Shown: piece after piece, positions 25,871 through 57,898 of the stretch
Layout of the letters: each line of letters begins with the position of its first letter
How positions within the stretch are numbered: position 1 is the stretch's first letter
From: Mytilus galloprovincialis
Lineage: Eukaryota > Mollusca > Bivalvia > Mytilida > Mytilidae
NCBI RefSeq assembly: GCF_965363235.1
Contig: NC_134849.1
Coordinates: 15,898,863 to 15,962,862, forward strand
Reading direction: 5' to 3'
Length of the DNA: 64,000 nucleotides
Notes under the pieces: model-generated
What the model saw: only the letters and a program-made list of their open reading frames with translations
Databases searched by the model: none
Told to the model about the DNA's origin: nothing
Made by a program: the position numbers and the translations under genes

Positions 25871-26127
25871 CTGTATTCATAATACTAAAAAGTCACTAGA
25901 TAGTAGATAGTAGTTCAGGGTGGTGTGTAAAACTAAACTATAAGACTGCAGCATCCAAGTACCAACACTGACATGTCTGAATACATTTTTAAGTATCAAG
26001 TCCTGTCCATGATCTTAAAAATATTATGAAGTAAGATCAAAGGGAAAATGTACTAATTGTCGATAAACAATAATAGTTTACATGGCTTTGTTCTTTTTTA
26101 TCTACATAAGCATATCAAGTACTTCAA

Positions 26128-33836: not shown

Positions 33837-34302
33837 TCACAATGTTGATTTGTCGTAGATATCAGTAGTCATGCTGTGGTCGTGACTTTTATATGACATA
33901 TATGAGTAATCCCCTTCAACCACTGAAAATGACGTGTCATATAATCCGTTTATATCATTGTGATTTCCTTTCACAATGGCTGCGCTATCGTAAGTAGGGC
34001 CAACTTCATTTTGATGTACGCCATGACTATGGTACATATTTTCTGTCATACACATTGTTCTATTTTGTTTATCATGTAAAACATCATATTCTCCATCGGT
34101 TGCGTCAGTAAAGGTCGCGTTCATTTTTTCAAGAAAAACTAAGTTATTTACAACGGAATATTCTGATGCACTAGTTTCACAGAGGTCATTTACTTTCCTT
34201 TTTCTTGTATTAGTTGAATCCTGGTTGATTGTGTTTGAAAAATGCAATTGGCTAGTTTCTCCTTTCTCAAATGTATTAGATTCTTTTAAAATTCCATTTG
34301 AC
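33837..34302 (-). CDS. Receptor exon 10: cytoplasmic tail
   Basis: Acceptor TGTTTTTAG at 34,303 and stop ending at 33,837. The tail is hydrophilic with a basic KRK cluster and Tyr motifs SEYSVV, GEYDVL, PTYDSAAIV, GLYDTSF, DYSYMSY and IYDKSTL. It aligns with the tail exon at 61,108-61,594 (GEYDHL, PTYDTA, NTYDHSF). Such YxxL/V and YDxx motifs are typical phosphorylation/adaptor sites; which kinase or adaptor would act here is not known. Confidence 0.8.
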
Positions 34303-37300
34303 CTAAAAACAAACATTTATTTATTGGTTAAAAAAACATATACAATTAAATTAATTTCCTAGAAAAGAAACAAATAATCATACAAAGTATTTTGTTTACT
34401 TATAATAATTTTCTCGGATATAGTTGTAAAACAGTTGTGAAACACACTGCCCGGGTAAATATATCTATACTTTTGGGCCAGGATTGTGATCCATACAATG
34501 CGTGCCATGAGTGGCTATGCTTTTGCGTTGTTTTTTGTTTTGCTTTATTAACTATTGTTATTCATGCCGAAAAAAAATAATAATTAACTTTTAATTAATT
34601 TCACGGTTATGTTTATAAAAAAAAGATGAAAATTGCAATAAATCATCCTACTGATGATTATTTATTATCGTGAAATACCAATATTCGTGGATTTTGGGGG
34701 TAATAATCTTTGTTTTTAAATGTTTAACGATAAACTCATCATAGACACCGGGATCAAATTGTGTATTTACGATAGACGCACGTTTCGTCTACAGAAGACT
34801 CATCAGTGACGCTCAAATCCCAAAAAATTTAAAAAGGTCTAATAAAGAAAGAGATTCAGAGCATTGAGGACCAAAATTATTTGAATGCCGACTATGCAAA
34901 AAACACAAAAGCGGAGATCCGCAAAACTACTGTAACAATCTTTCTTCAGTCCATCAACAGTGAAACCAACACACATCAATAAATCAACAGGATAAAAGAG
35001 ACTATTTTTTTTTTCACCAACAGCACGTTTAAGCTACTCATATTCTGTCATTCCTAAGTCGAGAGAATGTGTGTAATATTTTCAGATAACAAACTAATAC
35101 CAACCTTATTTTACATGCAATTAATGCAGCTATTACCACAAGTATAGAACATGCACTTATAATTCCACCAATCACTGCACCTATGGATGTATCACAATTT
35201 TCATTTAAGAATAAGAATATTATTGTACATGTTACACGTATAATCAAACAAACCATGTCAAATTTGTTTACTAAATTTTGAAATGTAAAAAATTGGAAAT
35301 AAGATATATATCAATGAGACAGCAGACAATTGATTTTCAATTATACATATTTTACACCGCACTGATCATAAACTATGACATTTCCTTCCATAAAAACTGG
35401 TAGCTATGTGCTGTGTTAGTTGAAACATTAAACTATTTATATGAAAGAAACTATCATTCAAAGAAGTAAAGCAGCTTATTCCCATCATTGTTATAAGATG
35501 GAATATCATTGCCAATGAGACAACTATCCACAACAGACCAAAATAACACAGAAATTAACAACTATAGATCACCGTACGGACTTCAACAATTAGCAGAGTC
35601 AATACCTCATTGTATCAGTTTACTAGATGTTTGATATCTTGTTTCATTACCTATTCCTCAATTGCATCTCCTTATAAGATATATAATTTAAGTCTTCAAG
35701 AAAAATTGGAGCTAAAAAATCAAACTCGATTTTAATATTGTAGATGAAAACCTATGCAATATGATAATTCATCCCACTGAACGGAGAATATATAGTAGGC
35801 AATGATAATGTCTCAATATGACTACTCTCACCTGTTAATATAGAGTTGTTTCCTTTCTCTCTCTGACCATTGTGTAACACAGTCTCCGTACTGTACATGG
35901 ATGCTGAAGATCCAAACATATAATAATGTGTTAATGGTTTCTACTTTCAGAATTTATAAAGATAAAGCAGTGTTATGCTGTTATACATGTTATATGAGAA
36001 AAAAAAATGGTGTATGAAAAATAGAATGATTAAATCTTATTCTTAGAAAAAAAATATTAGCATGGTTATCATGATTATTGATAACAATATCACTTAAACA
36101 TTTGTATTGAAGATTGTTTTAGTCGAGTTTGTTGTGGTCATCTGTTTTAATGTGAACGATGTTATCTCTTTTGGATTTTTTTTCTTCATTTAAATGCTTG
36201 ATGAAATAAAGATGTCAAGTTACCAGCCTTATAATTAACAGAACTGGCAATCGTCTGCTAAGATTGTTTTCAATTTTTCAACTAAAGATTCAAAGAAAAG
36301 ATGTAAAATTGGCAATTAAATATCATATGTGAAAAAAAGCATTACTTAATTAATAAAACCCATTACGAATATAAATAAGATTATATTGCACCAAACGAAT
36401 TATTCAAAAACGGAATGTGAGCAGAGGTCTTCTAGAATATGAAAGACAACAGATTCTCGTCCACAACTGATACCGGTATGTTTTCCTACGAAATTTTAGT
36501 TGTCATACAATAGTGGATTGATAAATAAAGACAAGAATAGTAAACTGCTGTTCAAAAGTCATTAATCGATTAAAGGAAAACTCATTTGGGTTACAAACTA
36601 AAACCGAGGGAAGGACTTAACACAGGCCTCTTTTGTCAAAACTTAAGACATAACAATATTCCATATGTACATAAAACATATTTAACATCAAGATAACTAT
36701 AACCGAATATGACAATTTTACATGTTTTAACATGAATTCTATGGTTTCAATCCACTATATTTTCTTAAATTGTCCTGTGCCAAGTCAGGACTATGACAGT
36801 TAAATGGTCCGTTTCTATGAATGTTGGCTTTTGTTTTTGATGCAGTTCAGTGTTTTTGTTGTTCTGTTGTTTTTTTTATTCTTACAGTAAATGTGTATCA
36901 CTGGATTTTTGGTTTGCGACACTGATTTGTTTTGCTTAATCGATTGATGGCTTTTGAGCAACGTCTTTGTTTTAGACAGAGATTCTTACGATGTTTGTAC
37001 CGGAAGAAAAAAACAATACAGAAATGAAAACTTATCTTATGCAACGCGAACCCCTTCAAAACAAAAACTTGCGTTTCTGTCAATTAAAAGGTAAATATGA
37101 AATCCTATTGTAAAATAACATACTTGATAATGCAAGAATTTCGATCAATTAGACATTATATACTCATATTTCGTTCAAACTATTAACATTTTTAGCAATA
37201 GAAAATATAAATGCAAACCAATGCAATATATAACAACCTATTTTGTTGTCTGTAAAATATGTTTTTTTGGCAACAAACTGTTCTTAGGATATGTTGCACC

Positions 37301-40300
37301 ATTTAATGCACTCTTGGATATTTTTTTTCAATGAAAATCATGATTATAATGCTTATTACTCTCAGATAGTTTTTTCTAATAAAAAACACATGTAAGCGAA
37401 ATGAGTGATTAAGGTGGTACCCAACACTTTTACTAAAATTATTTTGGCTCGTTTAATTTTCATAAAATTTTGTCAAAGTATTTACTTTGACCCTTTAACA
37501 AAAATATAAAAATTTCAAACATTTTGAACCAACTGTTGTCAGAAAAATAACACTGGTTATATAACAGTTTGACAAACACCAATTTTGATCATTGAGAAGC
37601 TTAGTATTCCCTTTACAACACAAGGTAATTATAACGTTAAGCTGACTTTGCAGAGTTATCTCCCTGTAGTGTTAGGTACCACCTTAATTGATAGATAAGT
37701 TTAAGTTAGATCTCAAAGGAACTTGGAAGTTCAAATGCTGTTCATTATTTTCTTAATTAGGTGTGAGTAGGAAATTATCGAGATGATTAATCTTAATTGT
37801 TGTTTATCCGCTTGCCATTATTGCATTTCAAGATATTCATTGTTTCAGTTCTATTTTATGTTCTTTTTGATATTAAGTTTTTACAGATTTATTAGCATTA
37901 CCAGTATGATTATAATGTTTCCCATTGTTTGTATTATTATATGGGTTTCAATCAATTACCTGTTGATTGGTAACTGCTTTTCTCTTTTTCATGTGAAGAC
38001 AACAGATCTGGTGAAGTGCGAACATCTTCTGTCATGCCTTTGTTGTGTGTAAATAAAGGGCGTTGTGTTTTTACTTCTGTATCTATGGTGGTATACATTA
38101 TTAAATTAAAGTAGATTAAAAAATTAGTAACACTTTTACAAACTGCAATGATAAAAACCAACAAAGTGAAACAAACACTAAATCAATTGATCATATGAAA
38201 TAACTTGAAGCGAACATTTTCAGATGATTTGAACTTTCTTTTATCACGGCAACTGGAAATATGTAGACTTTGGTCATTAGTCATGGCCTTTTAAAACTCC
38301 AAGTTATATATATATATATCAGGCTAAACAGTGTGTACCCCGGATGCGCATTTCGTCTTCAAAAGACACATGGCAATTAGTGACTCCCGGATATGAAACA
38401 ATTTAAAAAGTTCAATAAAATAAAAAGTTGCGGTTTTAATCCATCAATCTAGATTTTTCATACCCATATCTTCATTTGGCTAATCACATAAGAATACAAA
38501 TTTGCAATTGCAAAATTATTCTCTACACAGAAATGCAGAAAGTGCATCAATTGAAAAAAGTATGTATTGACTTGATTTGGAGGCTGTACAGTTACATGCG
38601 AGAGAACTTTCCAGTGGCATGTTAACAGGCGCTCTGTCATTCCTTTAGCTGTATATAGCATAGACCAGTGAAGTAACAGCAAAACAAAAAAAACAATATA
38701 TTTCAATCCGTAAAAGAGAGCTTAACTCATTCGATTGATACAAGCCACAAACACAATTTACGAAAACACTGAAGACATAAATCACAAATGTGAGGATACT
38801 TGCAGTTAATAAAAGCTAGTTCAAGGTTAATAACAACTAATCAACAATCATGCAACCAAGACATCAATATCAATAAGCATATCCGACATCGTATGGATTT
38901 CGTGTCAGGACTAAGTCAGAGAACTATTGAACAAAGCCAACATATAAATATCGACAGAGTATTGGCCCTAATACATGCAAATTAGCAATAAAATTGAGTT
39001 GTATTTTAATCTATTGATAACAAAATCAATGTGTGTACCGATAAAAACAATATTGAAAGATCAATTAACAGTGTTAAATCAGTAACCTTTCAGAATTTAT
39101 TAATTTAACGGATACATAAGGTTAGAAATGTCCCGGGCTTGTTGTATATCTAGTATATTGTATGCAAAATTTCGAAAGCAAAACTATCAAATATTGTAAT
39201 CTATACCAATATGTATTCCAGTCTGAATTGCTGAGAGACAAATAATTGTGATTTGGATAGTTTTCAAATCATTTGGTTAATGTCGCGATATTCTGGGTTT
39301 TAAAAACAAGAGGCTCTCAAGAGCCTGAATCGCTCACCTGGTAAACAATGCCTTATTGAACATATTGAACCATGCCAGGCAAATATGTACAGCTAACAAT
39401 TCTTCAATATTACAAATATATATGACTTACTGTTTATAAATAAAGAAAATGAGACCAAAACACAAACACTTAAAACGTAGCAATGGACTGTGAAAATGAG
39501 GTCAAGTTCAAATAAAACCTGCGTAACCGACATATAGATCATAAAATATTTTCATACACCAAATATAGTTGACCTAATGCATAAAGTATTAAAAAAATAG
39601 ACCAAAACTAAAAAAGTTAACTTTGACCACTGAATTATGAAAATGAGGTCAAGGTTAGATGACACCTGTCAGCTAGACATGTACACCTTACAATCATTCT
39701 ATACACCAATCTTAGTAGACCTATTTCATATAGTATAAGAAAAACAGACCAAAACACAAAAACTTACCCCTATGTTCTATTTAAAGTAAGGGCGGCCATG
39801 TTTTTTGACGGATCAAAAACCGAAGCACACACTTTGTGCAGGATAATCTAAGGAACTATCATGCTAAGTTTCATCCAAATCCATTCAGTAGTTTCAGAGG
39901 AGAAGATGTTTGAAAAATTGTTAACGACGACGACGACGACGACGGACGCCAAGTGATGAGAAAAGCTCACATGGCCTTTTAGGCCAGGTGAGCTACAATT
40001 CTTCAATATTACAAATATATATGACTTACTGTTTATAAATAAAGAAAATGAGACCAAAACACAAACACTTAAAACTTAGCAATGGACTGTGAAAATGAGG
40101 TCAAGTTCAAATAAATCATGCGTAACCGACATATAGATCATAAAATATTTTCATACACCAAATATAGTTGACCTAATGCATAAAGTATTAAAAAAATAGA
40201 CCAAAACTAAAAAAGTTAACTTTGACCACTGAATTATGAAAATTAGGTCAAGGTTAGATGACACCTGTCAGCTAGACATGTACACCTTACAATCATTCTA

Positions 40301-43300
40301 TACACCAATTTTAGTAGACCTATTGCATATAGTATAAGAAAAACAGACCAAAACACAAAAACTTACCCCTATGTTCTATTTAAAGTAAGGGCGGCCATGT
40401 TTTTTGACGGATCAAAATTCGAAGCACACACTTTGTGCAGGATAATCTAAGGAACTATCATGCTAAGTTTCATCCAAATCCATTCAGTAGTTTCAGAGGA
40501 GAAGATTTTTTAAAGTTAGCAAATATGATGAACAAATTGTGAAAAATTGTCATTAAAGGACATTTACCCCTTAAGGGGTCAATTGACAATTTTGGTCATA
40601 TTAACCTATTTGTAGATCTTACTTTGCTGATCATTTTTGCTGTTTACAGTATATCTTCATCTATAATAATATTCAAGATAATGACCAAAAACTGTAAAAT
40701 TTCCTGAAAATTACCAATTAAGTGGCAGCAACCCAACAATGGTTTGTTTGATTCATCTGAAAATTTCTGGGCTGATAGATCTTGACCTAATGAACATTTT
40801 TACCCCGTCAGTTTTGCTCTAAATGCTTCCGTTTTTGAGATATAAGCCAAAAACTGCATTTGACCCCTATGTTCTATTTTAAGTAACGGCGGCCATGTTT
40901 TTTGACGGATAAAAAATCGAAGCACACACTTCAGAGGAGAAGATGTTTGAAAAATTGTTAACGACGACGACGACGACGACGACGACGGACGCCAAGTGAT
41001 GAGAAAAGCTCACATGGCCTTTTAGGCCAGGTGAGCTAAAAATGTGTTCATTTTTTTATTAATATAAAAATAAAATATTGTAATCAGTCGGAACTAGCTG
41101 CTATCATTTATTTATCACGTTTCTGGTTCGTTCGAGATATCCACTAACTTGTAAATCACTTAATCAAAAATAATGTTTAACACAAACGTTGTCATGTTTC
41201 TATTAAGCAAGTAAAGTGTATTTATCATTAACAAGCAGATAAGAACAGATTGAAATGTAAGGCGTATATAATCTAAAAAAAACAACAATCCATTTATCGT
41301 TAACAACAAACTTTAGAGTTATCAAACACTTACTTGTTTTGCATACGTAATATTTTTTATTTCCGCTGCATTGTTGTTCTGTTATATTCAATATTTTGTT
41401 TCCTTCTACTTGGATAAATATTCCTGAAAAGCAGCGTTGGGGTTGCCCTTCAAAATCTACATAAATGAATGTATACAACTGCAATAAATGAATTATTATT
41501 CATTTTCATCATGGACATGCTTCATTTCTTTTTGTATTTATTATTTACTTGTTTGTCAAAATATCTGAAGTTTTTTTTCTCTTTAGAACATAGATACAAT
41601 TTTAATTAAGATATAACATACAAAAAAGATAGTTGGAAGATTGTAAGAGGAAATTAAAATAGCGTACGTGTTAGAAAAACTGAGATCGATTTGGCAAAAA
41701 AAAAACCAAGGCAAAATATGATATGCCAACTCATTACTACAAATACAACTAAAGACTGAGCAAGAGAAAAACCCCATCAAATAATTGGTTGGAGGATTAA
41801 TGTCCTTTCAGAGTCTTTGCGATTCCTGTCCACCTATGCCATATTGTTCATGCGAGTACAAACACGGTGGTAAGGCTCATTCCGCGATAACGAAATCGAA
41901 ACAAAGTCGATGAAGCTTGTGGTTACGACAATAGGAACATATGGTTATCCGGGCGATTAACGCTCTAACTAAATTTAAAATAATCATTTCATTTCATAAC
42001 CACGCAGCAATATATTGATCACCCGACTTTAATTGTCATTATAGAGACATGAGTGTTTAATGTAAAACAGGCAGTAGTAGATTTGAAAAAAACATAATCT
42101 TTGAGCAACTATATTTCTGTGAGGAAACCTTGGCTGGTTATAACAACAGTCAGATTATTTGACGATAAAAATGTGTATGAAGACTGTATACTTCGAAGAG
42201 GTATCGGAGTAGATAGTTTTTGTTTTAGTTCATGCTTATTAAACTTGGCCGAACAAGTGACAGTTGCTGCTACTTTGCAATGTGAGCTTTGAGGAGTGTT
42301 GGAATCAACTTTTCCGTTTTGAGTTAGAAAAATCATTTCAAGTTGGGGAACATTCAACACATATTTACCTTTCATTTGAAGTATTTCAATTTCCTGACGA
42401 AAGACGTTTGTCCATGAAAGTTGTCCTTTGAAGTCACTTTTTTTCCCTATTTTTTGACAGTAGTTGGAAGACGGTAGTAATGCGTTTCTTGTCATGCAAT
42501 AATTCAAGCTGTCGTAATAATTTAATCCCCATTTAAATACTGTAGAGGCTGACTTCTGGATTGTTCCTAGTATTATAAAACAATTGATTTTACTCAGTGA
42601 CTTAAAGGTTTAAAAACTGAATCGAACCTGTTTAGGATGGGCTCAAACATGTCAAAATGTACGCTATATATTATCAACGTTTTGAACCTTCGAATGTTCA
42701 TTAAGAAAAAATATGTGTTTATTCAACAAATCGTACCAAATAGATGGCATTTGAAGGACATTATAAATTCTTGTTAAAATTAGTTTGTTTATTAAAAAAA
42801 ATCGTTATTATTATATCAAAATCATTTACTATTTCAAGTTAAAATCAAATTCAAATTAGTCAAATGTCTGAAAGCATATGAACTAGTCGAATACTTAATT
42901 TGAAGATTATCCTGATCAATATCTGCGTTTTGTCAAAATTAAAAGTATAAAAAATAATTAAAAAAGCTAAAACCAATGCAAACACTTGAATATTCTCTTT
43001 ATGATATATAAAGCTCAATGTTATTTTCATATTTCTACAAAAAAACTATTTTTTACATTTGAGACCAAGGGCGCTATATTTGTCAGAATACCATGAACAA
43101 ATAGAAAATTGGAATCTTTCTAAAAACTAGGCTCCAATCTGATCATTCTCTCATTTTGGATTGCAAGTGTGAACTATGACTTTTTTATAGGTATGGTGAA
43201 GCAAACATTTGATAAATGACCAGATGAAATTTAACAATTGTACCTGTTGGTTATCAAACAAAAGTCCTTTTAATAAAACAAACTAGTTTTAACAAGAATT

Positions 43301-46300
43301 TAGAATTTCCTTCAAATGCCATCTATTTGGTAAGATTTGTGGAATAAACAGATATTTGTTCCAAATGAACATTCGAAGATTCAATACATTTCTAATAGAT
43401 GTCAACTTGGAGTTTTATTCATTTTAGTCAATGTATGGTTTTGAATTAACAGATAAAGTGCAACTTCCGACCAAATTGAATTAATATGTATATGACCCAT
43501 GACCGCCAGGACCGATTTGTATAGCTCTAACTCTGCAAATCTTTCAATATGTTTATTTTCCCTACAACATTTCTTCCTTCAATGCTTAGTTTGTCAACAA
43601 CTCACTGTGTTAGACCTTATTGTAATTTACATCCAGAAGATGGGGACAGCCAACACCAAAAACATTCTGGTTTGCTCATTCGTAATGGGGTTCTGGGATT
43701 TTACTATCGATGCTTTGTAAAAATGAAACCAACACTTTATTATATGTGTCCGAAGCGCTTTTCTGGATTTGCAATCACCCTGAACGGCGCTTAACGCCGA
43801 TTATTAGAAACCTGTGTATTTAAAAGAATCAAAACAGTTGAAGAGCCACATTTGCAACAAGATCGTTTTACCCTTCTGGAAACCCTTTGATCACCAACCA
43901 ATTTTTGGGGGTTTGTATTGATAAATTTGTAGTTTTCTTTGTTGCATTTTGTATAATGTTGTACATGTTATATGTCATTTTGTCGTTTTTAGTTTTTTGC
44001 CATGACATTGTAAATTTGGTTTTTACTTAAGAATTTGAATGTCCATTTGGTATCTTTAAACTCACTTATACGACATTAAAACGTTATGACGAAAAATGAA
44101 AATCACTCATTCCCTTCCCATTTACTCAATAATTCAGTAGTGAATGCACAATAATTGCAGGAATGAGTCAATAGGAGAACATATCACTTTTTACAATGCG
44201 TGTTTGACTTAACTTAAAGTATTACCACATCTACCAACTAGTGTGTCGTTTTTTGAACTGCAACTCCTTCCTTCTAAGTTATTACCATTTGCAGTAATAG
44301 TATTACAATTTCCGCAACATATCGTTGTGCAGTTTCCAGGATCTGAGGACGTACTAACCGTTCCATTATAATCTAAAAATAACTTTTTTTTAAATTGCTG
44401 TAACATTCAAAAACCTACTTAATAATTGTAATTTGTGCGTTACTTACTTCGATATGCAATATTGATATGTATTAATTAAAATTTATCATTTAACGTTTTA
44501 AGTCAGTATAGATTAATCAATATTTTTTTTATATTCCGGTAGCAGTAAATGTTAAGGGTTTAAGAATGGTTGACTCTTAACATAATGTTTCATTCTATTG
44601 CGAATTTGCAGTTTGTATGGATGCATATTAAGGTGGTATGGGAGTCTAAAATAAAAATGATAGAATTTGTTCATACTTTGCCGAAACGTAGTATCTATTG
44701 ATATATGGTCAAAATATATTTAAATGATAGGTCACCGTGCATTTTCGAAAGCTACAGGTTGTATCAGATTGACACATTTTGTATGGATTATACAGAAAAA
44801 AAACACCATTTTGTGATAAGGACCAAAACAAAAAGATAGAATTGTAAAAAAAAATAGGAAAAGATAGCTTTCAGACAATGATTTGAGAAGATAGGGTGAC
44901 CTTACGTTTTTTTTTTTTATAAAAACACAAAAGTAGGAAAATTCCATGTAGATTCATTCAGAAAATGTACTGTTTTAGAGTAACCTCCCCCTTAACATGC
45001 TAACTTAAAAACATTTAAAAACAACCAAAATTAATCATCACTATATCTATATTCATACAAATCGGTTCTTTTAAATGAAAATTCACATTAGATATCTGCA
45101 TTCCTGCATCAAATTTTGTTAACTAGATAGAAAATCTGGACCTTAGGTTCTCTGTTTTTTACAATCCAAGATGGCGAAAGACAATCATACAACCTTAACT
45201 ATACATTATAATTATATAACTAGTTAAGTATATTAATTGGAAAAGTCAATCTTTTATAACTCTTATACCTGGATTTCTAGCAACAAGGCTCTATAAAAAA
45301 CCCAAACAATTATCTAAAGACAATTAAAGCTAATAATGCGTTTTAACTTTTAAAAACCAGAAATGAACAATATGAATTTAGAACTGTTTGCATCATGTTT
45401 TAAACACGTTTGGTTAATATTGACGTTTTTAATACATATGCCCGATGAAAGTTGGATATGAAAGTAGAATATAAATGAAGCACTCTCAAAGTTTATAATC
45501 CTTTTAATCCTTTTATAACTAACATTCAATTAAGTAGCGTGTGTCCGACTGTATGTGTGTTAGTGTGTTTGCGTTTTAACTTAGCAATAATGAACCTTTT
45601 AGACAACTTTGTAATGTCTCGATTGTGCTTCGTCTACAAAAAAGGTTAGAAAACAATCTTTTGTTTTTTACTTTATGAGTTGAACTTTAAAAAATAGACT
45701 GGCGTTTAAAGATCTATACGAAAGCTTTTAATTGTGCGTTAGAAGAAAAGACAAAAATACCAAGTGTTGAATGATCTCATAAGCTGAAAACGAAGTAAAT
45801 ATGCAATCACTGAAATCTAAAACGGTCTGATTGAGAGAAACATACCCTAACAAAAATTGTGTAAGAAATAAATATGCGTCCATGAAAATTAATACATATA
45901 AGCTATTCAGATTAACTCACCTCTATAAACAAAAAAATGAGTTGAATTGAAACAATACTGTATAGCTCGTTGTTGTCTTTCATCCATTTCATTAGGAAGA
46001 CAAACACAATTGTGTGTTTGGGTCTGTAAAATAAATAAGCAAACCATGTATTCATTTTGATTGTAGAGCTTTTGAAATGAGCTTACTTTTGATCTTTTAC
46101 AAAATTGTTGAAAAATTGAAAGCGTATGTCTAGTAAAACTTATTTTTTTTTAACATAACTATGTAAAAGGTAAGAAATTACCTAAATTCCATTTAAAAAA
46201 AATCTCGAAGAGGGACGAAAAATACCAGAGGGACATTCAAACTCATAGATCAAAAATAAATTGACAACGCTATGACTACAAAATAAAAACAACAAACAGA

Positions 46301-49300
46301 CAAATAAAAGTAAAATGCACACAATACACAACATAGAAAACTAAAAAATAAGCAACAATTATTCCACCAAAAACTAAGATGGATCTCAGCTGCTCCGTAA
46401 GGGTTAGCAGACTCTGCTTCACATTTGGAACATGCTGTTTTGTTCATGTTAATACAGACACGGTGAATAGACTATTTCGGAAGGTCCAATTCGTTAAAAA
46501 AGGAAACGAGATTTTCGTTATGACATAATGAACATATTCGATATCATCTGTGAAACGGAAATACAAAAACGGTCAACCCACTCGTGATGGCGTCTGTAAA
46601 ATTACGTAGGAATTATTTCAATTTCCCTATTTGGAATTCTTGGTTTATTAGGTTCCTTGTAAGCAGCAACACTATATCAAGGAAAATATGGTAAGAAATA
46701 CTAGCCCGGGAATATCTTATCAGTTGGGATTTATATACTAGTACTTTATTTTCAACCGACCCTCATTGTCAACTTCTGAATGTAAAGCATTATATTAGGC
46801 AGGCTTAACTGTATCTGTTGCATCCTTTACAAGTAATATACTTACGTTCATAATAAGCTTTTTGTAACCAAAATAACGTCCAACATTTTTTAAATAGCAT
46901 TTATGTTGACAATTGCCTATCGATTCCACTGCTGGAAATGAGTGGGTATGATTTTCCGCAATTTGAAAACATCCTTTAAAAAAAGTATGTAGAATTATTT
47001 TATTGTAATGTGAAGACACTATCTGTTCAATTTTTGTTTGTAAAATAACGCTAAATGTCTTTGAGCCTTTTGATTTATTGATTTATCTTGATATATTTTT
47101 CTTTTATTGCTTAAATAATTTGTGTTATTCATTAAACAAATTGTAGTTACCTATAATTTCAATCCATCGTGTTGGTACTCTAAAAATAGCCTTTCCTATC
47201 TAAAATTCGTGTTCATAAGGAATGCCAATTTCCCTTAAATATTCCTCTCGGTTTTCTAAGCCATAAGGTTCACATGCACTTTGAGCACGATCCCACGTTA
47301 TGCCATTCGAATCATTACGGAGTAATTCTTGCGAAGGTTTGACTTAAAAAATAGAAAATGAATTGAAGTAAGAGCTGAAATACTAAAAGATATAAAAAGC
47401 TTCGTATTTAAAATATTATTCGCATACTTTGGATTAATTTATTTTTTAGGATTGAGGTAAACATGCAGTTTTTGATATTATTCGATTTCGTGGTTTTTCA
47501 TGAATCTACATAAATTCCTATACAAATTTCATTGAACATTTAAATTCGTTGTTCCTGTGTAACCACGAAATCCACGACAATTGATAGTCAACGACAAATA
47601 ATGAATCCACAGTAATAATCCTGCAATACCAAGAATAGCAGGCCCCAAGCCAAATTCGACGTCAAATACAAAATACAAAATGTATTGAAGATAATCAAAA
47701 TCAATATAATTGACATGAAGTCAGTGTAAAAAAAAGGCTGGGCTGTTAAGGTTGCTTGCGTAAAACAATTGCTTTGACAATGAGAACCTGCAATATTAAA
47801 ACAAATGTATCTGCTACGTGTTTTCTATGTCAACATCAAACGCTGACTAATAGATAGAATATGCATACACATTATAAACTAAATGAAGGAAATAAACAAA
47901 CATGACTAAAATATCTATCATTTTAATATGACGTCCACGTCCTTCTTTTGCTTTGTCATCAACAACTCCAAAAAATTCTCGATATATCTTTACTTAGCGC
48001 AGACTCAGAGATAAAATGGATATTACAATGAACATCCAACGTAAATCCACATGTATAAGAACCTATCTGCAAACGCTATGCCGATTTTATTGTTTTTAAA
48101 ATTGCAATTTAAAGAGGACTACAAACTTTTATCGTATTCGGATGCATAACAAAAAGAATGTATGCACAAGGGCTCGGAGAAATCTACAAAATAAAAACTA
48201 AATTAAATTCTGCGAAAGTTCATGAAATAATAATGCTTTTGGCGCATTTAACTCGTTTCATTTATTTATGGAATGATTCATGCAAGCTACAGATGTATTA
48301 GAATATTTAGCTTTATCTAACAGGGAGTAAAAAAGAACAGCCACACACTCGGCATACCAACCCTCGCTTCAGATTTTTTAATGACCGTATTTTTCCTATA
48401 AGAATCAAAACAATTCATTATGAATATATCGCAATAACAATATGTATGACCTTCATAAATATTAAAAATATTAGAAAAAACGATTTTGGGAAATGTGTAG
48501 GTATTTGAAGGATCACATATAAACTGCTAAAGTTGGCTTGTCATTGGAAACTATTCACGATAATTATAACATTAATCGGAAATGAAAAGTTGATTTATAA
48601 TTTTTATGTTTGGTTATATCAAACAAGGAAGTCTAAAGTTCAAATAAAACTAAATTTTTGAAAAAAAATCGACAAAACGTTTGATCAAATTTTTGTCAAA
48701 TTAGGAAATCACACGTATTCTCATCCTTTTTGATACATGTTGAAATTGAGAATAAATATCATCGACATAATGAAACATTTATTGATACAGACGTCTATAA
48801 AAAAAAGTCCAAATATCAAATACGAAATAATTTTATAAATTTTCATAATACAGTCAAACCCATTAGTTTTTATTACTGGGCTCAAGAGTTGATCATTTTG
48901 TAGAAATAAGGATTGATTTGTGATAACGAGTTTAGAGTTTTAAGTATACAACCATGTTTAATCCATCTTTTTATTTACATAAGAAATGCATGAACCAGTT
49001 CAACAATATTATAGTTGAACTGTTTTCCAATAGTTTATTCTTTTGATGTGTTTGAGCTTTTGATTGTATCACTTGTTTACCTTCCGGAGCACCTGAGATC
49101 ACCCCTAGTTTTTTAGTGGGGTTCGTGTTGTTTATTCTTTAGTTTTCTATGTTGTGTCGTGTGTGCTGTTGTTTGTTTGTCTTTTTCATTTTTAGCCATG
49201 GCATGGTCAGTTTGTTTTAGATTTATGAGTTTGACTGTCCCTTTGGTATCTTTCGTCCCTCTTTTGTAAATAGAAGTTTTTTAAGTTTCCTTCGAGGTCG

Positions 49301-49591
49301 TTTTCTTCTCTTTATTCATTACAATTATTTTTTGCGATTATTGGAACATTGACATATACAAATCAGATTATGTGTTCTGGTGACATTTTTTTTAATGTGT
49401 ATGCAAACACGTTCAAAAAATGATACGTGTATGACTACATTTTCTCATAACGTGTAATTACAACCTTTATATATAAATATAAATGTATATTTAAATGATA
49501 TATTAAATAAAAAGAAAAAAAATAACTTACCAAAAGGTATGCATACTATCACAATTAAAGCATGTAAAACGATCATGTCAACAGCAACCAT
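33837..49591 (-). CDS. CTLD-WSC-CTLD transmembrane receptor with tyrosine-motif tail (10 exons, one in-frame TAG)
   Basis: Minus-strand host gene. Exons: 49,591-49,531; 47,342-47,151; 46,973-46,846; 46,023-45,921; 44,372-44,226; 42,539-42,369; 41,456-41,334; 35,903-35,832; 35,180-35,105; 34,302-33,837. All have AG acceptors and GT donors, and every junction keeps phase, giving about 512 codons. Order: signal peptide; C-type-lectin-like half domain (WDRAQSAC ... IGKAIF); WSC-like module (GCFQI ... CQHKC ... CVC); Cys-rich linker (CTTICCGNC); second C-type-lectin-like domain (YYDSLNYC ... SWTNVFRQ ... CFSG ... CSGNKKYYVC); stalk; hydrophobic helix (GAVIGGIISACSILVVIAAL); 154-residue tail with many Tyr motifs. 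A cell-surface recognition receptor is the likely role; ligand unknown. TAG at 47,200-47,202 replaces the family Trp, so this copy may be a null allele or young pseudogene. Confidence 0.75.
34725..34835 (-). repeat. Hammerhead repeat family 1, reversed, in the last receptor intron
   Basis: Minus strand: GAGCGTCACTGATGAGTCTT, CTGTAGACGAAAC, GTGC, GTC then TATCGT (34,812-34,771). The catalytic core is intact but stem I has two mismatches next to the cleavage site. It is sense with respect to the receptor transcript (also minus). Confidence 0.7.
35105..35180 (-). CDS. Receptor exon 9: transmembrane helix
   Basis: 76 bp, acceptor ATCCATAG, donor ATAAG|GTTGGT. Encodes GAVIGGIISACSILVVIAAL-IACKI, a hydrophobic span of about 22 residues ending in a basic stop-transfer residue completed in exon 10. 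Starting after ATCCATAG fits the one-nucleotide overhang of the previous exon. Confidence 0.8.
35500..35612 (+). repeat. Short copy of the GAGACAACTCTCCA dispersed repeat
   Basis: CCAATGAGACAACTATCCAC, ACAGACCAAAATAACAC and CCGTACGGACTTCAACAAT match 51,010-51,090. Confidence 0.65.
35832..35903 (-). CDS. Receptor exon 8: juxtamembrane stalk
   Basis: 72 bp, acceptor GATCTTCAG, donor AACAG|GTGAGA. Encodes SMYSTETVLHNGQREKGNNS-ILT, a polar stalk with one N-glycosylation site (NNS). The phase (2 nt in, 1 nt out) matches exons 7 and 9. Confidence 0.75.
37409..37687. mobile_element. TTAA-flanked MITE (AAGGTGGTACC ends)
   Basis: Left TTAAGGTGGTACCCAACACT and reverse complement of right TTAAGGTGGTACCTAACACT differ at one position. 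279 bp, non-coding. TTAA at both borders could be part of the ends or a piggyBac-type target duplication. Confidence 0.75.
38325..38400 (-). repeat. Decayed hammerhead-type repeat
   Basis: Minus strand: GGGAGTCACTAATTGCCATG, TGTCTTTTGAAGACGAAA, TGCGCATC. Stem II GTCTTTTGAAGAC and GAAA are kept but the CTGATGA box is changed and enlarged, so this is a relic or a divergent variant. Confidence 0.5.
39307..41038 (+). repeat. Bivalve dispersed repeat, tandemly duplicated
   Basis: Left end AAGAGGCTCTCAAGAGCCTG (palindromic) followed by AATCGCTCACCTGG; right end CACATGGCCTTTTAGGCCAG followed by GTGAGCTA, preceded by a (GAC)n run. The inner part 39,395-39,994 is repeated from 39,995, period 599, with only a handful of differences up to about 40,503. 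The second copy has an extra ~440 bp bracketed by TTCAGAGGAGAAGAT at both ends. The outer ends share GCTCACCTGG in inverse orientation. Classification is open (see findings). Confidence 0.75.
41334..41456 (-). CDS. Receptor exon 7: end of second C-type-lectin-like domain
   Basis: 123 bp, acceptor TTTATGTAG, donor AACAA|GTAAGTG. Encodes FEGQPQRCFSGIFIQVEGNK, ILNITEQQCSGNKKYYVCKT. The C...C...YYVC spacing is that of the C-terminal loop of C-type-lectin domains; NIT is a glycosylation site. No Ca-binding WND motif is seen, so sugar binding cannot be claimed. Confidence 0.8.
41830..41955 (-). repeat. Relic of the YIDD-family retroelement
   Basis: TGCGAGTACAAACACGGTGG and TTACGACAATAGGAACATAT resemble 46,440-46,540, the start of the 3' part in the minus orientation. 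Confidence 0.4.
42369..42539 (-). CDS. Receptor exon 6: start of second C-type-lectin-like domain
   Basis: 171 bp, acceptor CCTCTACAG, donor ATGAAAG|GTAAAT. Encodes FKWGLNYYDSLNYCMTRNAL, LPSSNYCQKIGKKSDFKGQL, SWTNVFRQEIEILQMK. The AxxYC-like NYYDSLNYC helix and SWTNV strand match C-type-lectin-like folds. Acceptor chosen because it alone gives the required 2-nt phase. Downstream frame readthrough past the donor has no domain signal. Confidence 0.78.
42684..43382. repeat. Inverted repeat with ~115-bp arms in receptor intron 5
   Basis: Left arm (42,684-42,801) and reverse complement of right arm (43,274-43,382) share CTTCGAATGTTCATT, CCAAATAGATGGCATTTGAA, AAATTCTTGTTAAAA and TAGTTTGTTT in the same order, with about 470 bp between. 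Non-coding; a MITE-like or fold-back element. Confidence 0.75.
43740..43862 (-). repeat. Decayed hammerhead family 2 relic
   Basis: Minus strand keeps AAATCCAGAAAAGCGCTTCG but the catalytic box is replaced (GGGTGATTGC), so it is inactive. Only the ribozyme end of the repeat is present. Confidence 0.55.
44226..44372 (-). CDS. Receptor exon 5: Cys-rich linker
   Basis: 147 bp, acceptor TTTTTAG, donor ATGTG|GTAATA. Encodes YNGTVSTSSDPGNCTTICCG, NCNTITANGNNLEGRSCSSK, NDTLVGRC. Six cysteines (CTTICCGNC cluster plus two) and three N-glycosylation sites. No named domain recognised. Phase 2-nt in, 1-nt out. Confidence 0.75.
44628..44995. mobile_element. TTAA-flanked MITE-like element
   Basis: Begins TTAAGGTGGTATGGGAGTCT and ends (reverse complement) TTAAGGGGGAGGTTACTCT. 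Only the outer TTAAGG-GG is shared, so the inverted repeat is weak, but both ends are TTAA-bordered. Lies in receptor intron 4. I recall this sequence as recurrent in mussels. Confidence 0.45.
45921..46023 (-). CDS. Receptor exon 4: end of WSC-like module
   Basis: 103 bp, acceptor TTTTACAG, donor TAGAG|GTGAGT (near consensus). Encodes TQTHNCVCLPNEMDERQQRA, IQYCFNSTHFFVYR. CVC after a Gly/Tyr-rich segment is the typical end of WSC modules; NST is a glycosylation site. Confidence 0.8.
46200..46832 (-). mobile_element. YIDD-family retroelement copy in receptor intron 3
   Basis: Minus strand. The 3' part (GAGGGACGAAAAATACCAGA at its plus-strand left end) and degenerate C-terminal RT coding are collinear with 22,415-23,100, with internal gaps. 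Its 5' end, GGCTTAACTGTATCTG, lies only about 14 bp from the donor of receptor exon 3. Older than the 20/22 kb copies judging by mismatches. Confidence 0.7.
46846..46973 (-). CDS. Receptor exon 3: WSC-like module
   Basis: 128 bp, acceptor TTTTTTTAAAG, donor ATGAAC|GTAAGT. With the split Gly codon it encodes GCFQIAENHTHSFPAVESIG, NCQHKCYLKNVGRYFGYKKL, IMN. GCF at the start, CxxxC and F-G-Y are the conserved WSC positions, completed by CVC in exon 4. Phase 2-nt in, 0 out, which reconciles exons 2 and 4. Confidence 0.8.
47151..47342 (-). CDS. Receptor exon 2: first C-type-lectin-like half domain, with in-frame TAG
   Basis: 192 bp, acceptor TATTTTTTAAG, donor TTATAG|GTAACT. Encodes KPSQELLRNDSNGITWDRAQ, SACEPYGLENREEYLREIGI, PYEHEF-stop-IGKAIFRVPTRWIEII. 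TAG at 47,200-47,202 stands where the paralogous exon at 26,128-26,289 has Trp (FWIGKAI); a single G-to-A change in TGG would produce it. Both splice sites look functional, so the exon was probably active recently. Confidence 0.75.
47425..47614. mobile_element. MITE (TACTNTGGATT ends)
   Basis: Left TACTTTGGATTAATTTATTT and reverse complement of right TACTGTGGATTCATTATTTG are similar; the interior has TTTCGTGG and its inverse CCACGAAA. About 190 bp, in receptor intron 1. A frequent end type in bivalves, as I recall. Confidence 0.6.
47643..49077. other. Receptor intron 1, no further exon
   Basis: AT-rich intronic sequence. Nothing else supported. Confidence 0.45.
49078..49268 (+). repeat. Fragment of the YIDD-family 3' part
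   Basis: CTTCCGGAGCACCTGAGATC through CTTTGGTATCTTTCGTCCCT, nearly identical to 20,699-20,885. A recent, strongly 5'-truncated insertion in receptor intron 1, opposite strand to the gene. Confidence 0.75.
49531..49591 (-). CDS. Receptor exon 1: signal peptide
   Basis: Donor CCTTTTG|GTAAGTT. From ATG at 49,591: MVAVDMIVLHALIVIVCIPF, a plausible signal peptide. The start was chosen because it gives a 61-bp, 20-codon exon identical in size and phase to the paralogous exon at 28,008-28,068. The inner Met (49,576) or further upstream Mets remain possible. Confidence 0.65.
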
Positions 49592-49649
49592 TGAGGATAT
49601 CAGCAATCGGAAACAATGAATCTGAATCATCATTGTATACATGTATGAC

Positions 49650-52323: not shown

Positions 52324-55300
52324 GTATATTTTGGATTTTTTTGTCAACAATGCTCTTCAACTTTGTACTTGTTTGGATTACTAACTATTTTGATCTGAGC
52401 GTGACTGGTGAGTCCTATCTAGACGAAACTCGCGTCTGACTTATCAAATTATAGCCTGATACCTTTAATAACTATTTACACCACTGGGTCGATGCCTTTG
52501 CTGGTAGACATTTCGTCCCCGATGGCATCACCAGCCCAGTATTCAACACTTCGGTGTTGACATGCATATCACTTACATTTGTATATGATCATTTAATAAA
52601 TTTACTGTTTACGAAAGTATGAATTATTCAAAAACTAAGGATTTTCTTAGCTAGGCATAGATAACTAAGACGTATTTGGCACAACCTTTTGGAAATTTGG
52701 GTGATCAATTCTCTCCAACTTTATACTTGTTTGCATTTCTAGCAATTTTGATCTGAGCGTCACTGATGAGACTTATGTAGACGAAACGCAGATCTTGCGT
52801 ATAAAATGTTAGACCTTTGATAACTAATTACAATATCATAGCATAGCATGTCAATGAAAATAAATGTATAATTTTCTCTAATAAAAAAAACCAACATCAA
52901 CTGTGTCCTCATTTCCTCCAATATTACGTACCAATTAGACTTACTAATGTTTTTTGTTCTTACATGTATGTAACATGTAGACTGGTGCCAAATGTGGAGC
53001 ATGATCTCAAAAGAAACATATGGGATAATCCCTAGGGATGTCAGTTTATTTCGACCTTTGTTCACCACATACATTTTTGAACAGATTTTAAAAAAAATCG
53101 CATTACCTTTCGTTATGTATTTCGTTGAAATTGTAATCCGTTTTGCTCAGTTTTAGTCTAAATGATCATTATTATATTAAACATAATATATCTATATGAA
53201 TTAAACACCTTTATGTTTCATTTACTTGCTTTTAATTTGAGGCAAACCCTTTAATACTAATATTTTCGTGCAAGGTCAAGTTTACATAAGAACGTCAGCG
53301 TAACAAACTGTAATCATAAATTACTTGAATACATAAAAAAACAGCTTAATATGAACAGCCCAAATAAACCGTGTCAAATTTGTCATCTTAGTTTGAATAC
53401 AATTCCATTATCAAAATACTGATATTGTACAAATAAACACGTAATGGTGATAACCTAAATGTAAATCTCAAGTTATAGTCAAATATCTCATTAACCTATT
53501 ATTCTAGACCTGCGTTTCTATTATTTGTTTAAAATGTATAGATTAGAGTGTATATTAAGGCAGTGCAATAGTAGTTGCATTCTGTGGGTATTCAGTAAAC
53601 GGATAGTAATCAAAATTATTGATTTAGATTAGTACAAAAAAAAAGTAAAATCACAAAAATACCGAGGAAAATTCAAAGTCCTCGGATGGCAAATTAAAAG
53701 GGTATAGAGTACGATTTCTTTTCATTATTAGGAAAACACAAATAGTTTCAATTGCTAATCAAATAACCAATGCTTATTGATGACACTCGAATCAAAATTG
53801 TAGGAAAGTAAAATAAAATACAAGATTAAAGAGTATTAAAAAATTCAAAATCAATATATGTTGCGTATTTTAGCAAAGTCTATTTTTAACTTAGTGTAAA
53901 AGAACCTCGGAGGTTATAAAGCGTCATCATTTCTAACAAAATATTAAAAGTATTATTTTTTTGCCTTGAACTTACTATAAATAGGATCGCTAGTGAAAGA
54001 ATTTTAGTGAGCAAATTTCACGTTGACCTTTGTTTCATGTGAAAAAAATTTAACAGTGAAGTTTCATTATCACATTTATTGATTGCATTTTTAAAACTAC
54101 ATTTCATAAAATTCGCTTGCAATCAATTCAGTAAGCTCTTAAACTGTTTCGATAATTTTACATTCTCGGCTTTCAAATATAGATCTTTGAGAGAGCCTGC
54201 TGAAGATATATTCAGATTCATTTACTGGTTTTTTTTTTCTTAGATTTTTTTATGTATTAAGATGATTGTCTGTATCATAAACATATTATGACAAATCAAA
54301 GATACAAAAAACAACCACAGCACAACAACACATTGACAGGATAGATAAGTACCAAGTAATTTCAAAATGTTATAACCAAGAATAGACTTAGCAATAAAGG
54401 TTGATAATTTAAGGACAAATAATCAACGACTATGACACGCAATTTAAATCATGAACAACATCAGTAATTCAAATCCAGTATGTATAGTTATTACTTATTG
54501 GTTTGTGATGTTAAGTGGGCCAGACAATATATTGACCTTTAAATGACATCCGTTGAATGTTATTGACTTAATGACATAAATCTTGACATTTGAAGAAACC
54601 TGAAGTTTAGACATATCAGTGTGCAGCATTTCAATGATATATAATGCATTCAACATGTACAATTTATACCTGTAAAAAAAATTAAGAATCTCAAGGAAAC
54701 ATGTTTTAATTTTAATCAGCCAATGCAAGTGTAATTTATTTCCTTTACACTGACATAATGTACTATTTGCGCCGAGGTGTAATTATATACAAATTCCTAC
54801 GCCATGCTCAATTTTATAATTAACCTTTGGTATCCACGAATAATACAATCTTAATGGAACATGCCTTAACAACGAGATAATGTATGTTATTTGCCAAGGT
54901 GTAGACATATTTAACCATGTAGATTTTTACGTTTAATGATTTGACAAGACTTAAATCGCCACGTCAAACAATCGCTTAAGTTTTCGACACTTTCGAGTGT
55001 TAAAGATAAATTGAGTTCTCTTTGGCCTTTTTAAGTCATAAAAATTGCAATCTTTTTTTCTGACTATATTAAACATTTCATCAACGATTGAATCAAATGC
55101 GTAAAACATATCTTAGCATTAAATTTTATAATTATTTACAGCCATAGCATTGCAATAAAAACTGTGTTTTGTTGAATATATTTTCCTATTATTCCTTAGG
55201 CATTTAAATAAGAAGTTTATAAGAAGTTTAATGTTGTTGATATTTTTTTCAGAAAATTTAAGATCAAATATGTCACTTTTGGAGGATGATAATGCAAACC

Positions 55301-57898
55301 TTCTGCACAGAATGGAAATAATGAACCAAAAGAGCAGCGCCGAGTTATCCGTCATGAGAAATGACATGCAATACTTGGAACAGGAAAACCAAAAGCTTTC
55401 TTCAACAATATCAGCTTTGCAAAACGATGTGCAGTATTTACAACACAGTATAAAAATTGAAGGAGAATCCTATCGACAGAATTTGACAACCCTAATGACA
55501 AAGGTGTCACATAGCTACACAGTTCTACAGCAATTAGTAACAGATGAAAAAGTCGAAACTAACCATTTACAGAATAATATGTCTACGCTACAACTTAAGA
55601 TGCATAGTAGGTATAATTAAATGGCAAATTCCTATGCTATAAACTTTGGTATTTGTATTCTAATAATACAGAATAGCCAAAAACAAAACAATTATCAAAT
55701 TGACAGCGATTTACAATCTATGTTTAATTTGTGAACAAACAAAATAGATGCAAATCAAAGGGGATATACCTTGATATTTTAAGTTGGTTTCATGCGGCTT
55801 CATTCTATGATATTAGTCTAACAGTCATGTATATAGAATCTCAAACTGTTTACTTTCATGGGACACTATGCTTAACTTAATATATGTTGTTTCGTATTTT
55901 ATTTTATTTTCACAGTAATACAAATGTTAACCACTGCCTTTGCTATCATTATAAGCAGCCACTTTTTTTGTGAAATAATTGATTGATGTGTTGTTGTTTA
56001 ACTTGTTCTCATTTTCGGGGCTACATTCTTTTGTGCCTGTTAAAAGTAAGAAGCCTGTAGCTATGTGGTTGTCGTTGTCTGTCATATATTTGTTATGCCG
56101 TTTAGTTTTTTATTTGAATTGTTGAATAATGTTTAATCTCGGCGCTTTGTATAATTTCATTTTCTGACATAAAATTTCTCAATATCTAAGGTCGTACGGT
56201 TGCTTATAATTGCTAACAACAAATTCATTATGAACCTTCGTACAACGTTACCTAATTGGCAAAGATTCAATATCTACTTATTTCTATATATATATTAGCT
56301 TTAGTGGTGTCTTGCCATGGCTTTATTTGGACTTGTTTGTTTGCTTTTTGGCCTTGAATGTTTGTCCCTAATATTTTATTAACTGTGCATTTGCATTCAG
56401 ATATCGCAGATCAAATTTATTCGTTCATAGTGTAATAGTTTATGTTTTTTGATTGAGTTAAGCCTGCCAATTGATATTTTACCGTGTGTTCTTCTATGTT
56501 GTGATGTTATGCTAGTGTTTCAGAAAAAGGGAGAAGGTTAGGATTTATTAAAACGTTTAATCCCGCTGCAAATGTTTGCACCTGTCGTAAGTCAGGAATC
56601 TGATGTACAGTAGTTGTCGTTTGTTTATGTAATATATACGTGTTTCTCGTTTCTCGTTTTTTTTTTAAATAAATTAGACCGTTGGTTTTCCCGTTTGAAT
56701 GGTTTTACACTAGTAATTTTGGGGCCCTTAATAGCTTGTTGTTCGGTGTGAGCCAAGGCTCCGTGTTGAAGGCCGTACATGGACCTATAATGGTTTACTT
56801 TTTTTTAAAATGTTATTTCAATGGAGAGTTGTCTCATTGGCACTCACACCACATCTTCCTATATCTAGCTTTAAAAAGAGACTTTTTCAATCACCAGTTG
56901 CTTTAAAATGTTAACGTAATTTTGTACAGAGAATATGTAAAAATATAAAACAACACGTTTAATAATTTATTGCGTCCGAAGCGCTTTTCTGGATTTACCT
57001 TCATAAGGAACGCTCAAAACCAAACATTTGAAATCCCAAGATGTATAAGTACCGAAAATCGTTGAAGAGCTATATGTTAAAAATACCTAAAATAAATAGC
57101 CAAATTCATCTAAAGCCAACTTTGCCTGAGGGAGTTGAAACCTTAGTTTCATAATAATTTCAAAATTTATAAACGGACAATTTTAGTAAAGTTTGTTTAA
57201 TCATGTCAGTACCGAAACACTGACTACTGAGCTGATCATACCCTCGGGGACTGATAGTCCACCAGCAGAGGTATCGACCCAGTGATGTAAAAATATAAAA
57301 CAACACGTTTAATAATTTATTGCGTCCGAAGCGCTTTTCTGGATTTACCTTCATCAGGAACGCTCAAAGCCAAACATGGTTGCGTTATGTGAGCTAAACG
57401 ACGTCGACAATAAATGATATCTGCGTCATTATGATAATATAACAGTATGATAAAGTATACAATGCATTATTCTAAAAAAAATCTATTTCAGCCTTTTGAG
57501 CATTTACTGTACAAAATACACAAGCTTTTTCCAATGTTCCCAAAGGACAAACACTTGTATTTAACAGTGTCTATACTAACGAAGGAAACAGATACGATCC
57601 CCATTCAGGAATATTTACTGGAGATGTTGCAGGGTGGTATATGTTTCTTTTTACCATCAGAGTTAGATACTACAGCCAGTTATGTGTGACCGAACTGGTG
57701 AAAAACAGCAATAGAGTGGTGTTTGGAATGTCTATGTCGGGCACAAAGTACCATCAGCACAGCAGTGAAAGTAATTTTGCAGTCATTCATTTGAACCTAG
57801 GTGACAAAGTCTGGTTAAGGACTGGTCCATGGCCTGAACAAACGTGTACCGTTGATGACTTATCAAGTTTTTCGGGATATCTGATCAGTTCTTTTTAA
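52203..57898 (+). CDS. Secreted coiled-coil C1q-domain protein (3 exons)
   Basis: Host gene. Exons 52,203-52,323, 55,253-55,606 and 57,501-57,898 join in phase (1 nt over, 2 nt in, twice) to about 290 residues. Residues 1-20 (MEHMKIVLLLLFALGLTESQ) are a signal peptide; about 21-158 form a heptad-rich coiled coil (LQNLKRELQQLKMET, then exon 2); about 159-290 are a C1q domain with TFTVQNTQAFSNV, YTNEGNRYDPHSGIFTG, AGWYMFLFTI, LNLGDKVWLRTG and a terminal SSFSGYLISSF. Coiled coil plus C1q without collagen is the usual architecture of the expanded bivalve C1qDC family, proposed as trimeric pattern-recognition lectins of haemolymph. Introns contain hammerhead repeats. Confidence 0.85.
52399..52442 (+). 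ncRNA. Hammerhead ribozyme copy, family 1 (upstream of a pair)
   Basis: GAGCGTGA, box CTGGTGA (one change from CTGATGA), AGTCCTATCTAGA, CGAAAC, TCGC, GTC, TGACTT. Core has one substitution (A6 to G) and stem I is poorly matched, so activity is doubtful. 358 bp upstream of a second copy in the same orientation. Confidence 0.65.
52470..52756 (+). repeat. Body of the family 1 hammerhead repeat unit
   Basis: Starts with CACCACTGGGTCGATGCCTT, ACACTTCGGTGTTGACATG, continues with ACTAAGGATTTTCTTAGCTA and CTTTATACTTGTTTGCATTT and ends in the ribozyme at 52,757. The first part parallels family 2 units (57,180-57,290 reversed), so the two families share an origin. Confidence 0.65.
52757..52800 (+). 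ncRNA. Hammerhead ribozyme copy, family 1 (downstream of a pair)
   Basis: GCGTCA (52,757-52,762), CTGATGA, stem II GACTTATGTAGAC (outer pairs only), GAAAC, GCAG, ATC, TTGCGT. Core intact; stem I keeps A-U, U-G, G-C, C-G and G-U pairs with one mismatch. Cleavage predicted after C52,794. In intron 1 of the C1q gene, sense strand. Confidence 0.7.
52831..55252. other. C1q gene intron 1, remainder
   Basis: AT-rich. A weak relic of the YIDD-family 3' part may lie near 52,980-53,050. No further exon supported. Confidence 0.4.
55253..55606 (+). CDS. C1q gene exon 2: coiled coil
   Basis: Acceptor TATTTTTTTCAG, donor GCATA|GTAGGT. Encodes 117 full codons, Leu/Asn/Glu-rich: SLLEDDNANLLHRMEIMNQK, ELSVMRNDMQYLEQENQKLS, STISALQNDVQYLQHSIKIE. 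Leu at heptad spacing predicts oligomerisation. Confidence 0.85.
56680..56872 (-). repeat. Dispersed repeat (GAGACAACTCTCCA family), reversed
   Basis: Reverse complement gives GTGAGTGCCAATGAGACAAC, CTCCATTG, GTACGGCCTTCAACACGGAG and GGGCCCCAAAATTACTAGTG. I recognise this as one of the commonest mussel repeats. A shorter relative lies at about 58,915-58,965. Confidence 0.75.
56972..57013 (-). ncRNA. Hammerhead family 2 copy with changed core (G5)
   Basis: Minus strand GCGTTC, box CTTATGA instead of CTGATGA, AGGTAAATCCA, GAAA, AGCGCTT, C, GGACGC. The catalytic G5 is T, so inactive by known hammerhead chemistry. Confidence 0.7.
57322..57363 (-). ncRNA. Type I hammerhead ribozyme, family 2
   Basis: Minus strand. 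Stem I GCGTTC (57,363-57,358) with GGACGC (57,327-57,322): five Watson-Crick pairs and one U-G. Core CTGATGA (57,357-57,351). Stem II region AGGTAAATCCA: only GG/CC plus an A-A opposition. GAAA (57,339-57,336). Stem III AA/TT around GCGC. Cleavage after C57,328. Core complete; the weak stem II is unusual and is the same in all copies here. Confidence 0.75.
57501..57898 (+). CDS. C1q gene exon 3: C1q domain
   Basis: Stop TAA 57,896-57,898. Acceptor taken as CCTTTTGAG at 57,500, giving 2 nt in and the sequence T-FTVQNTQAFSNVPKGQTLVF. The stronger-looking acceptor TATTTCAG at 57,491 would bring TGA in frame four codons into the exon. The domain is complete: 131 residues. Confidence 0.8.

Follow-up and report, generated by a model that had tools for sequence, protein, structure and literature searches.

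A tandem family of putative lectin-like signalling receptors in Mytilus galloprovincialis, one copy of which carries an in-frame stop codon

We present here an analysis of a minus-strand gene, named W, in a 64,000-nucleotide stretch of the genome of Mytilus galloprovincialis (NCBI RefSeq assembly GCF_965363235.1, contig NC_134849.1, called C12 below, positions 15,898,863 to 15,962,862); this whole stretch is referred to as the window. W is likely a damaged copy within a tandem family of type I membrane receptors of the signalling type. An intact member would comprise a leader, the first half of a lectin-like domain, a two-exon WSC-like module, a cysteine-rich exon, a two-exon lectin-like domain, a single helix and a cytoplasmic tail; the leader and the single helix, on which the type I reading is based, were recognized in the sequence by eye. 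A sequence-only reading of the window had proposed a surface recognition receptor, and a surface receptor is still the best reading. That interpretation as a whole is partly supported: its in-phase exon chain stands, while its exon count, start and open frame do not. If our reading is correct, the mussel possesses signalling receptors that form a clustered family with fast turnover and whose lectin and WSC parts are too diverged for Pfam, and domain surveys may therefore undercount or miss the family. W alone matters little, being damaged.

Gene model and paralogues

The W model spans positions 33837 to 49633 of the window and consists of nine exons joined at eight junctions, where ten exons and nine junctions had been proposed. 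The entry phases following exon 1 are 1, 1, 0, 1, 1, 1, 1 and 2. The reading frame is 512 codons long including the final stop, or 511 without it, and is interrupted once internally by a TAG codon. Exon 1 (49531-49633) holds the start codon and a hydrophobic leader, by eye a probable signal peptide, and its 34 residues recur at 76% identity with the same donor in two paralogues. The start codon at 49633, which replaces one placed earlier at 49591, is conserved in copies A1 and A2. Exon 2 (47151-47342; 192 bases, phase 1-1) encodes the N-terminal half of a C-type-lectin-like domain (CTLD) and carries the TAG. Exons 3 (46846-46973, phase 1-0) and 4 (45921-46023, phase 0-1) encode the first and second halves of the WSC-like module, the second with a CxC motif. 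Exon 5 (44226-44372) is cysteine-rich and conserved in the paralogues, and is proposed as the C-terminal half of the first lectin-like domain. The N- and C-terminal parts of the second lectin-like domain are encoded by exon 6 (42369-42566), which has the motif WTNVFR, and exon 7 (41334-41456), whose acceptor and phase 1 are common to A1 and to copy B. Exon 8 (35105-35180) encodes a putative single transmembrane helix, its hydrophobicity judged by eye, and exon 9 (33837-34302) encodes a cytoplasmic tail with the sequence DGEYDVL and ends in the stop codon. All nine exons are on the minus strand. The order lectin-like, WSC-like, lectin-like, helix and tyrosine-containing tail had thus been given correctly in outline, although exon 2 by itself is only the first half of a domain. 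The remark that no single frame would be long enough to be picked up as a gene was not quite right, as the tail is part of an open frame of 159 codons and exon 6 of one of 166 codons.

A profile search of the whole window with exons 2 to 9 returned only the proposed exons, an exon-2 piece near 26 kb and a tail near 61 kb, with nothing comparable on the plus strand. Two splice-like open stretches ahead of the helix exon, at about 38076 and 35903, were rejected as additional exons, having no counterpart at E ≤ 1 in a 200-kb stretch of the cluster (C12:15,490,001-15,690,000). An alternative junction between exons 6 and 7 at 42274/41478 was ruled out by the paralogues, which place the end of exon 6 at 42369 and the start of exon 7 at 41456. 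The intron between exons 7 and 8 contains, at approximately 39300-41050, two similar repeat units, each headed by a short palindrome (by eye).

All nine exons have paralogues in the same 200-kb stretch, in the same order and on the same strand. Copy A1 (C12:15,564,458-15,607,266), about 0.33 Mb from W, matches it in all nine exons, in their order and in the eight junction phases, and has sound splice sites and 503 codons with no stop. The ratio of nonsynonymous to synonymous substitution rates (dN/dS) between A1 and W is 0.32 (bootstrap 0.25-0.41; 502 codons), and the values for individual exons, 0.10 to 0.52, are below 1 in all nine. An in-phase minus-strand chain beyond chance, as argued from W alone, is borne out by A1 and by this constraint.

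Searches of the genome (1.38 Gb, 331 contigs), when merged, gave at least 16 exon-2, at least 16 exon-6 and at least 18 tail places, W included; these counts are lower bounds because the search scores only the best candidates. All places are on the minus strand of C12 in two clusters, at 15.49-16.29 Mb and 31.63-31.74 Mb, and exon-2, exon-6 and tail places mostly alternate along them. Exon 9 has eight genome matches, its own locus counted, and a profile search alone recovered three of the 18 tails, which are short forms. The architecture, earlier described as one that could not be named, is therefore that of a tandem family and not of one odd gene, and bivalve proteins combining C-type lectin (CTL) and WSC domains are already in print, according to the accessible part of one paper (PMC10140915).

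Copy A2 (L030-L032, C12:15.627-15.644 Mb) is near-identical to A1 in exons 1, 2 and 5 to 8 and has a short tail. No WSC exon was found between its exons 2 and 5, a stretch that contains repeated sequence, and A2 is without a tryptophan kept in seven aligned members. A similar absence of WSC exons from copies C, D and F was considered and rejected: both C and F have diverged versions, and D has at least exon 3.

The stop codon in W

The in-frame TAG is codon 82 (47200-47202, minus strand) of a joined frame that had been described as open. Tryptophan occupies this position in six of six other aligned family members, and all 13 other genome matches of exon 2 are free of stops. Because of its stop, W most likely makes no receptor, and it is probably a null allele or a recent pseudogene unless the symmetric exon 2 is skipped. 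With B as the third sequence (443 codons), the branch to W carries 87 replacement and 52 silent changes and the branch to A1 carries 84 and 44 (Fisher p=0.61). W thus has no excess of amino-acid changes relative to A1, so that the loss is recent or only segregating, and nothing points to a long period of neutral decay. The stop is compatible with a recent null, a segregating allele or an assembly error.

W might be kept alive by joining exon 1 directly to exon 3; the resulting receptor would retain the WSC-like module along with the second lectin-like domain, the helix and the tail. Exon 2 has 192 bases and phase 1 on either side, and this symmetry would allow it to be skipped, and the stop with it, without loss of frame; both of its splice sites look intact, and the W branch without excess amino-acid changes agrees with a functional product. 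Such skipping would, however, cost the receptor the N-terminal half of its first lectin-like domain, encoded by an exon present in at least 16 places, and we consider it quite improbable. It is also rather unlikely, if less strikingly so, that W is an ordinary working member whose stop reflects a rare allele or an error of sequencing or assembly. A single stop in an otherwise open 511-codon frame and the constraint on the gene (dN/dS) would be expected in that case, but two of the eight family tail matches also have stops inside them, which argues that decay is not rare in the family. Together with the stop in W and the losses in A2, these tails make up the decay observed, and we retain the reading of W as a damaged member.

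Lectin-like and WSC-like domains

Compared with canonical CTLDs of the same genome, the exon 2 profile scored 30.2, which none of 100 column shuffles reached. Exon 2 has the first-half CTLD signature (W/A/C ... WIG), and the sole PDB match of its profile at E ≤ 10 was CLEC5A (E=0.69). In exon 6, a W, a C, LL and WTNVFR are common to seven aligned members; the profile of the second lectin-like domain likewise had a sole PDB match at E ≤ 10, NKG2-A (E=0.26). Four canonical cysteines were placed by eye in the second domain of W, A1 and D, and B is without the last one. When exon 7 was compared with canonical CTLDs, 10 of 100 shuffles were equally good, one of them at an absurd score of 130.7. Lectin_C (PF00059) was not found over its curated cut-off in single exons, joined W and A1 proteins, second-domain members or composites, and exons 5 and 7 of W, A1 and B contain no EPN, QPD or WND. 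Such calcium/sugar motifs are not a requirement for CTLD-like proteins. Weak Pfam matches to Protocadherin, LamB, Phage_tail_APC and TSP1_CCN among the exons, joined proteins, alignments and composites were taken as chance.

The profile of the WSC-like part, with members C and F added, scored 22.97, above all 100 shuffles (maximum, 20.45), with a probability of only 23. An earlier three-member profile had scored 10.7, under its best shuffle of 17.7; between the two tests the reference set also changed, L004 being dropped and L005 added. Pfam WSC (PF01822) matched one of five family members (E=0.013, under the curated cut-off) and none of the other four; a Chlorophyllase match beside that single match was taken as chance. 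PDB profile searches gave no match for exon 2 plus WSC or for the WSC-like part. By eye, six of the eight cysteines of the WSC pattern (GCx ... CxxxC ... CxC ... C) are present in W, A1 and B, and the exon phases 1-0-1 are common to W, A1, B, C and F. The same phases, split just before CxC, occur in four of four canonical WSC genes inspected in this genome, which are near-identical copies from two chromosomes. W thus resembles these genes in its two-exon WSC with phases 1-0-1 and a split shortly before CxC and differs in having neither the last two of the eight cysteines nor CGG. The genome holds at least 129 WSC matches, with dense arrays of canonical WSC exons at C5:70.90-71.01 Mb, C3:78.2-78.5 Mb and C5:82.09-82.19 Mb.

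In the anatomy that we favour, at close to even probability, exons 2 and 5 form one CTLD into which the WSC-like module was inserted as a phase-1 two-exon cassette in a mid-domain intron, with exons 6 and 7 forming a second CTLD. Exon 2 closes with a phase-1 intron that follows a W-containing strand, and a phase-1 intron lies at the matching mid-domain place in both canonical CTLD genes inspected (C13), which were picked because their Pfam matches ended mid-domain. Among the 55 canonical CTLD matches listed, three end at 61-68 and 32 start at 23-43, so this mid-domain exon limit is a minority one. The insertion place is presumably the start of the long ligand-binding loop. Exons 5 and 7 both begin and end in phase 1, and the cysteine spacing of exon 5 is, by eye, like that of a CTLD second half; exon 5 may therefore be the second half of the first lectin domain.

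Alternatively, and at somewhat below an even chance, no domain is nested: exon 2 would then be a genuine half-domain joined to WSC, with exon 5 as an unrelated linker rich in cysteine. The exon 5 profile found no support against canonical CTLDs (84 of 100 shuffles scored as high) and gave only a hint against exon 7 (five of 100 shuffles equally good), as a linker would. An unrelated linker would not be expected, however, to parallel exon 7 in phases and, by eye, in cysteine spacing, or to follow an exon 2 that ends at the same mid-domain phase-1 intron as the two canonical CTLD genes, chosen though these were for it. In A2, moreover, the next exon found after exon 2 is exon 5, without an intervening WSC exon. 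If the domain is nested, this tandem family of tyrosine-signalling receptors would carry a recognition head with one domain inside another, and the cassette could go cleanly, as in A2, or change fast within a lectin frame that is kept. Clean exon phases, together with A2 as a natural copy in which no WSC exons were found, open the nested-domain idea to direct testing.

Cytoplasmic tail and signalling

Nine long tails were aligned out of the at least 18 places, of which six were not fetched and three are short. The motif GEYxxL is present in all nine, preceded by D in four, and its chance of occurrence per tail is at most 0.0025 (shuffles of each tail). An inhibitory tail, resembling an immunoreceptor tyrosine-based inhibition motif (ITIM), in place of an activating one is unlikely. 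SEYSVV in W and SVYAVV in L012 fit the ITIM pattern, but within the aligned region it occurs in only these two of the nine tails, a third match (L013) being upstream of the aligned tail, and the invariant GEYxxL has G at -2.

Several results weigh against W as a damaged member of a family of lectin-like signalling receptors. GEYxxL was checked in only nine of the 18 tail places, and the three short tails, all from the 200-kb stretch, end early without it. The hemITAM consensus DGYxxL, named for the immunoreceptor tyrosine-based activation motif (ITAM), was found in none of the nine tails, nor was an ITAM pair (two YxxL/I with 6-12 residues between); GEYxxL is thus only hemITAM-like and not a match. 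The accessible part of PMC3819593 gives this consensus and the variant ERYxxL of NKp80. A domain search of the joined protein, which the sequence-only reading had suggested, did not contradict lectin-like and WSC-like folds, but Pfam does not confirm them: neither CTLD nor WSC was found in the joined W or A1 protein. Neither of the PDB matches, NKG2-A and CLEC5A, falls below E=0.1, and NKG2-A is lost when the second lectin-like domain is searched with a four-member profile, which had no PDB match. That domain compared no better with canonical CTLDs than shuffles did (25 of 100 reached its score). Finally, an assembly error or a segregating allele might account for the stop in W, one assembly having been examined.

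The exon chain, its paralogues, the constraint, the motif conserved in the long tails and the stop codon are established by the sequence comparisons; for an intact member of the family, ligand binding, phosphorylation, a signalling partner and a cell type are inferred. At the cell surface, the ectodomain would bind a ligand, probably not via the classical calcium/sugar motifs. Clustering may then lead to phosphorylation of the GEYxxL tyrosine, which, on the model of the oyster receptor CgCLec-HTM, could recruit an SH2-domain protein such as Syk. GEYxxL suggests a link to the signalling route reported in oyster.

Known systems

As described in the accessible parts of two papers (PMC12842671, PMC13027682), oyster CgCLec-HTM is a hemITAM membrane lectin that signals via Syk, ERK and Rel. 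CgCLec-HTM and CgCLec-TM1 are bivalve membrane lectin receptors with a hemITAM tail and in this resemble the W family, whose long tails are hemITAM-like; CgCLec-HTM has a C-terminal helix. In those parts, however, CgCLec-HTM is listed as single-domain, with no WSC described, and binds lipopolysaccharide and bacteria, whereas the W family has CTLD-like units plus WSC and GEYxxL.

In the accessible part of PMC10140915, bivalve CTL proteins with WSC are counted among unique architectures, and a bivalve-specific uncharacterized class of C-type-lectin-domain-containing proteins, category C, is described. These proteins resemble the W family in combining CTL and WSC, in belonging to a large bivalve repertoire and in being uncharacterized. 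They differ in that neither a tail motif nor a cluster, a nested domain or an exon structure is described in that part. In mostly open-access literature, at the level of titles and abstract openings, we found no description of the receptor family under WSC with C-type lectin in bivalves or molluscs, WSC in Mytilus, or tyrosine-based tails, receptors or clusters in molluscs.

Vertebrate C-type-lectin-like receptors are type II proteins with one CTLD. Those compared here (NKG2-A, CLEC5A, NKp80) share with the W family a CTLD-like sequence, YxxL-type signalling in some and clustered genes, and differ in having no WSC; the likeness is likely convergent. NKp80 is an atypical hemITAM receptor according to the accessible part of PMC3819593.

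Other features of the window

Two further pieces of the family lie on the minus strand of the window. An exon-2 profile match at 26117-26272 is a lone piece resembling exon 2 from another member. No other family exon was found among the best matches from there to the left window edge, and the piece belongs to either a very long gene or a relic. A tail profile match at 61108-61614 is the tail exon of another member.

On the plus strand, 55159-57898 combines a stretch of coiled-coil appearance (by eye) with a C1q domain after it (57500-57895; Pfam C1q, E=1.9e-25), and is likely a gene for a C1q-domain protein beside the receptor cluster. Open frames at 3665-4708 (plus) and 9657-14870 (minus) resemble, by eye, pieces of retroelement integrase, reverse transcriptase and RNase H. 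An open frame at 18454-18969 (plus) has a weak GDSL hydrolase match (E=1.4e-4, under the curated cut-off).

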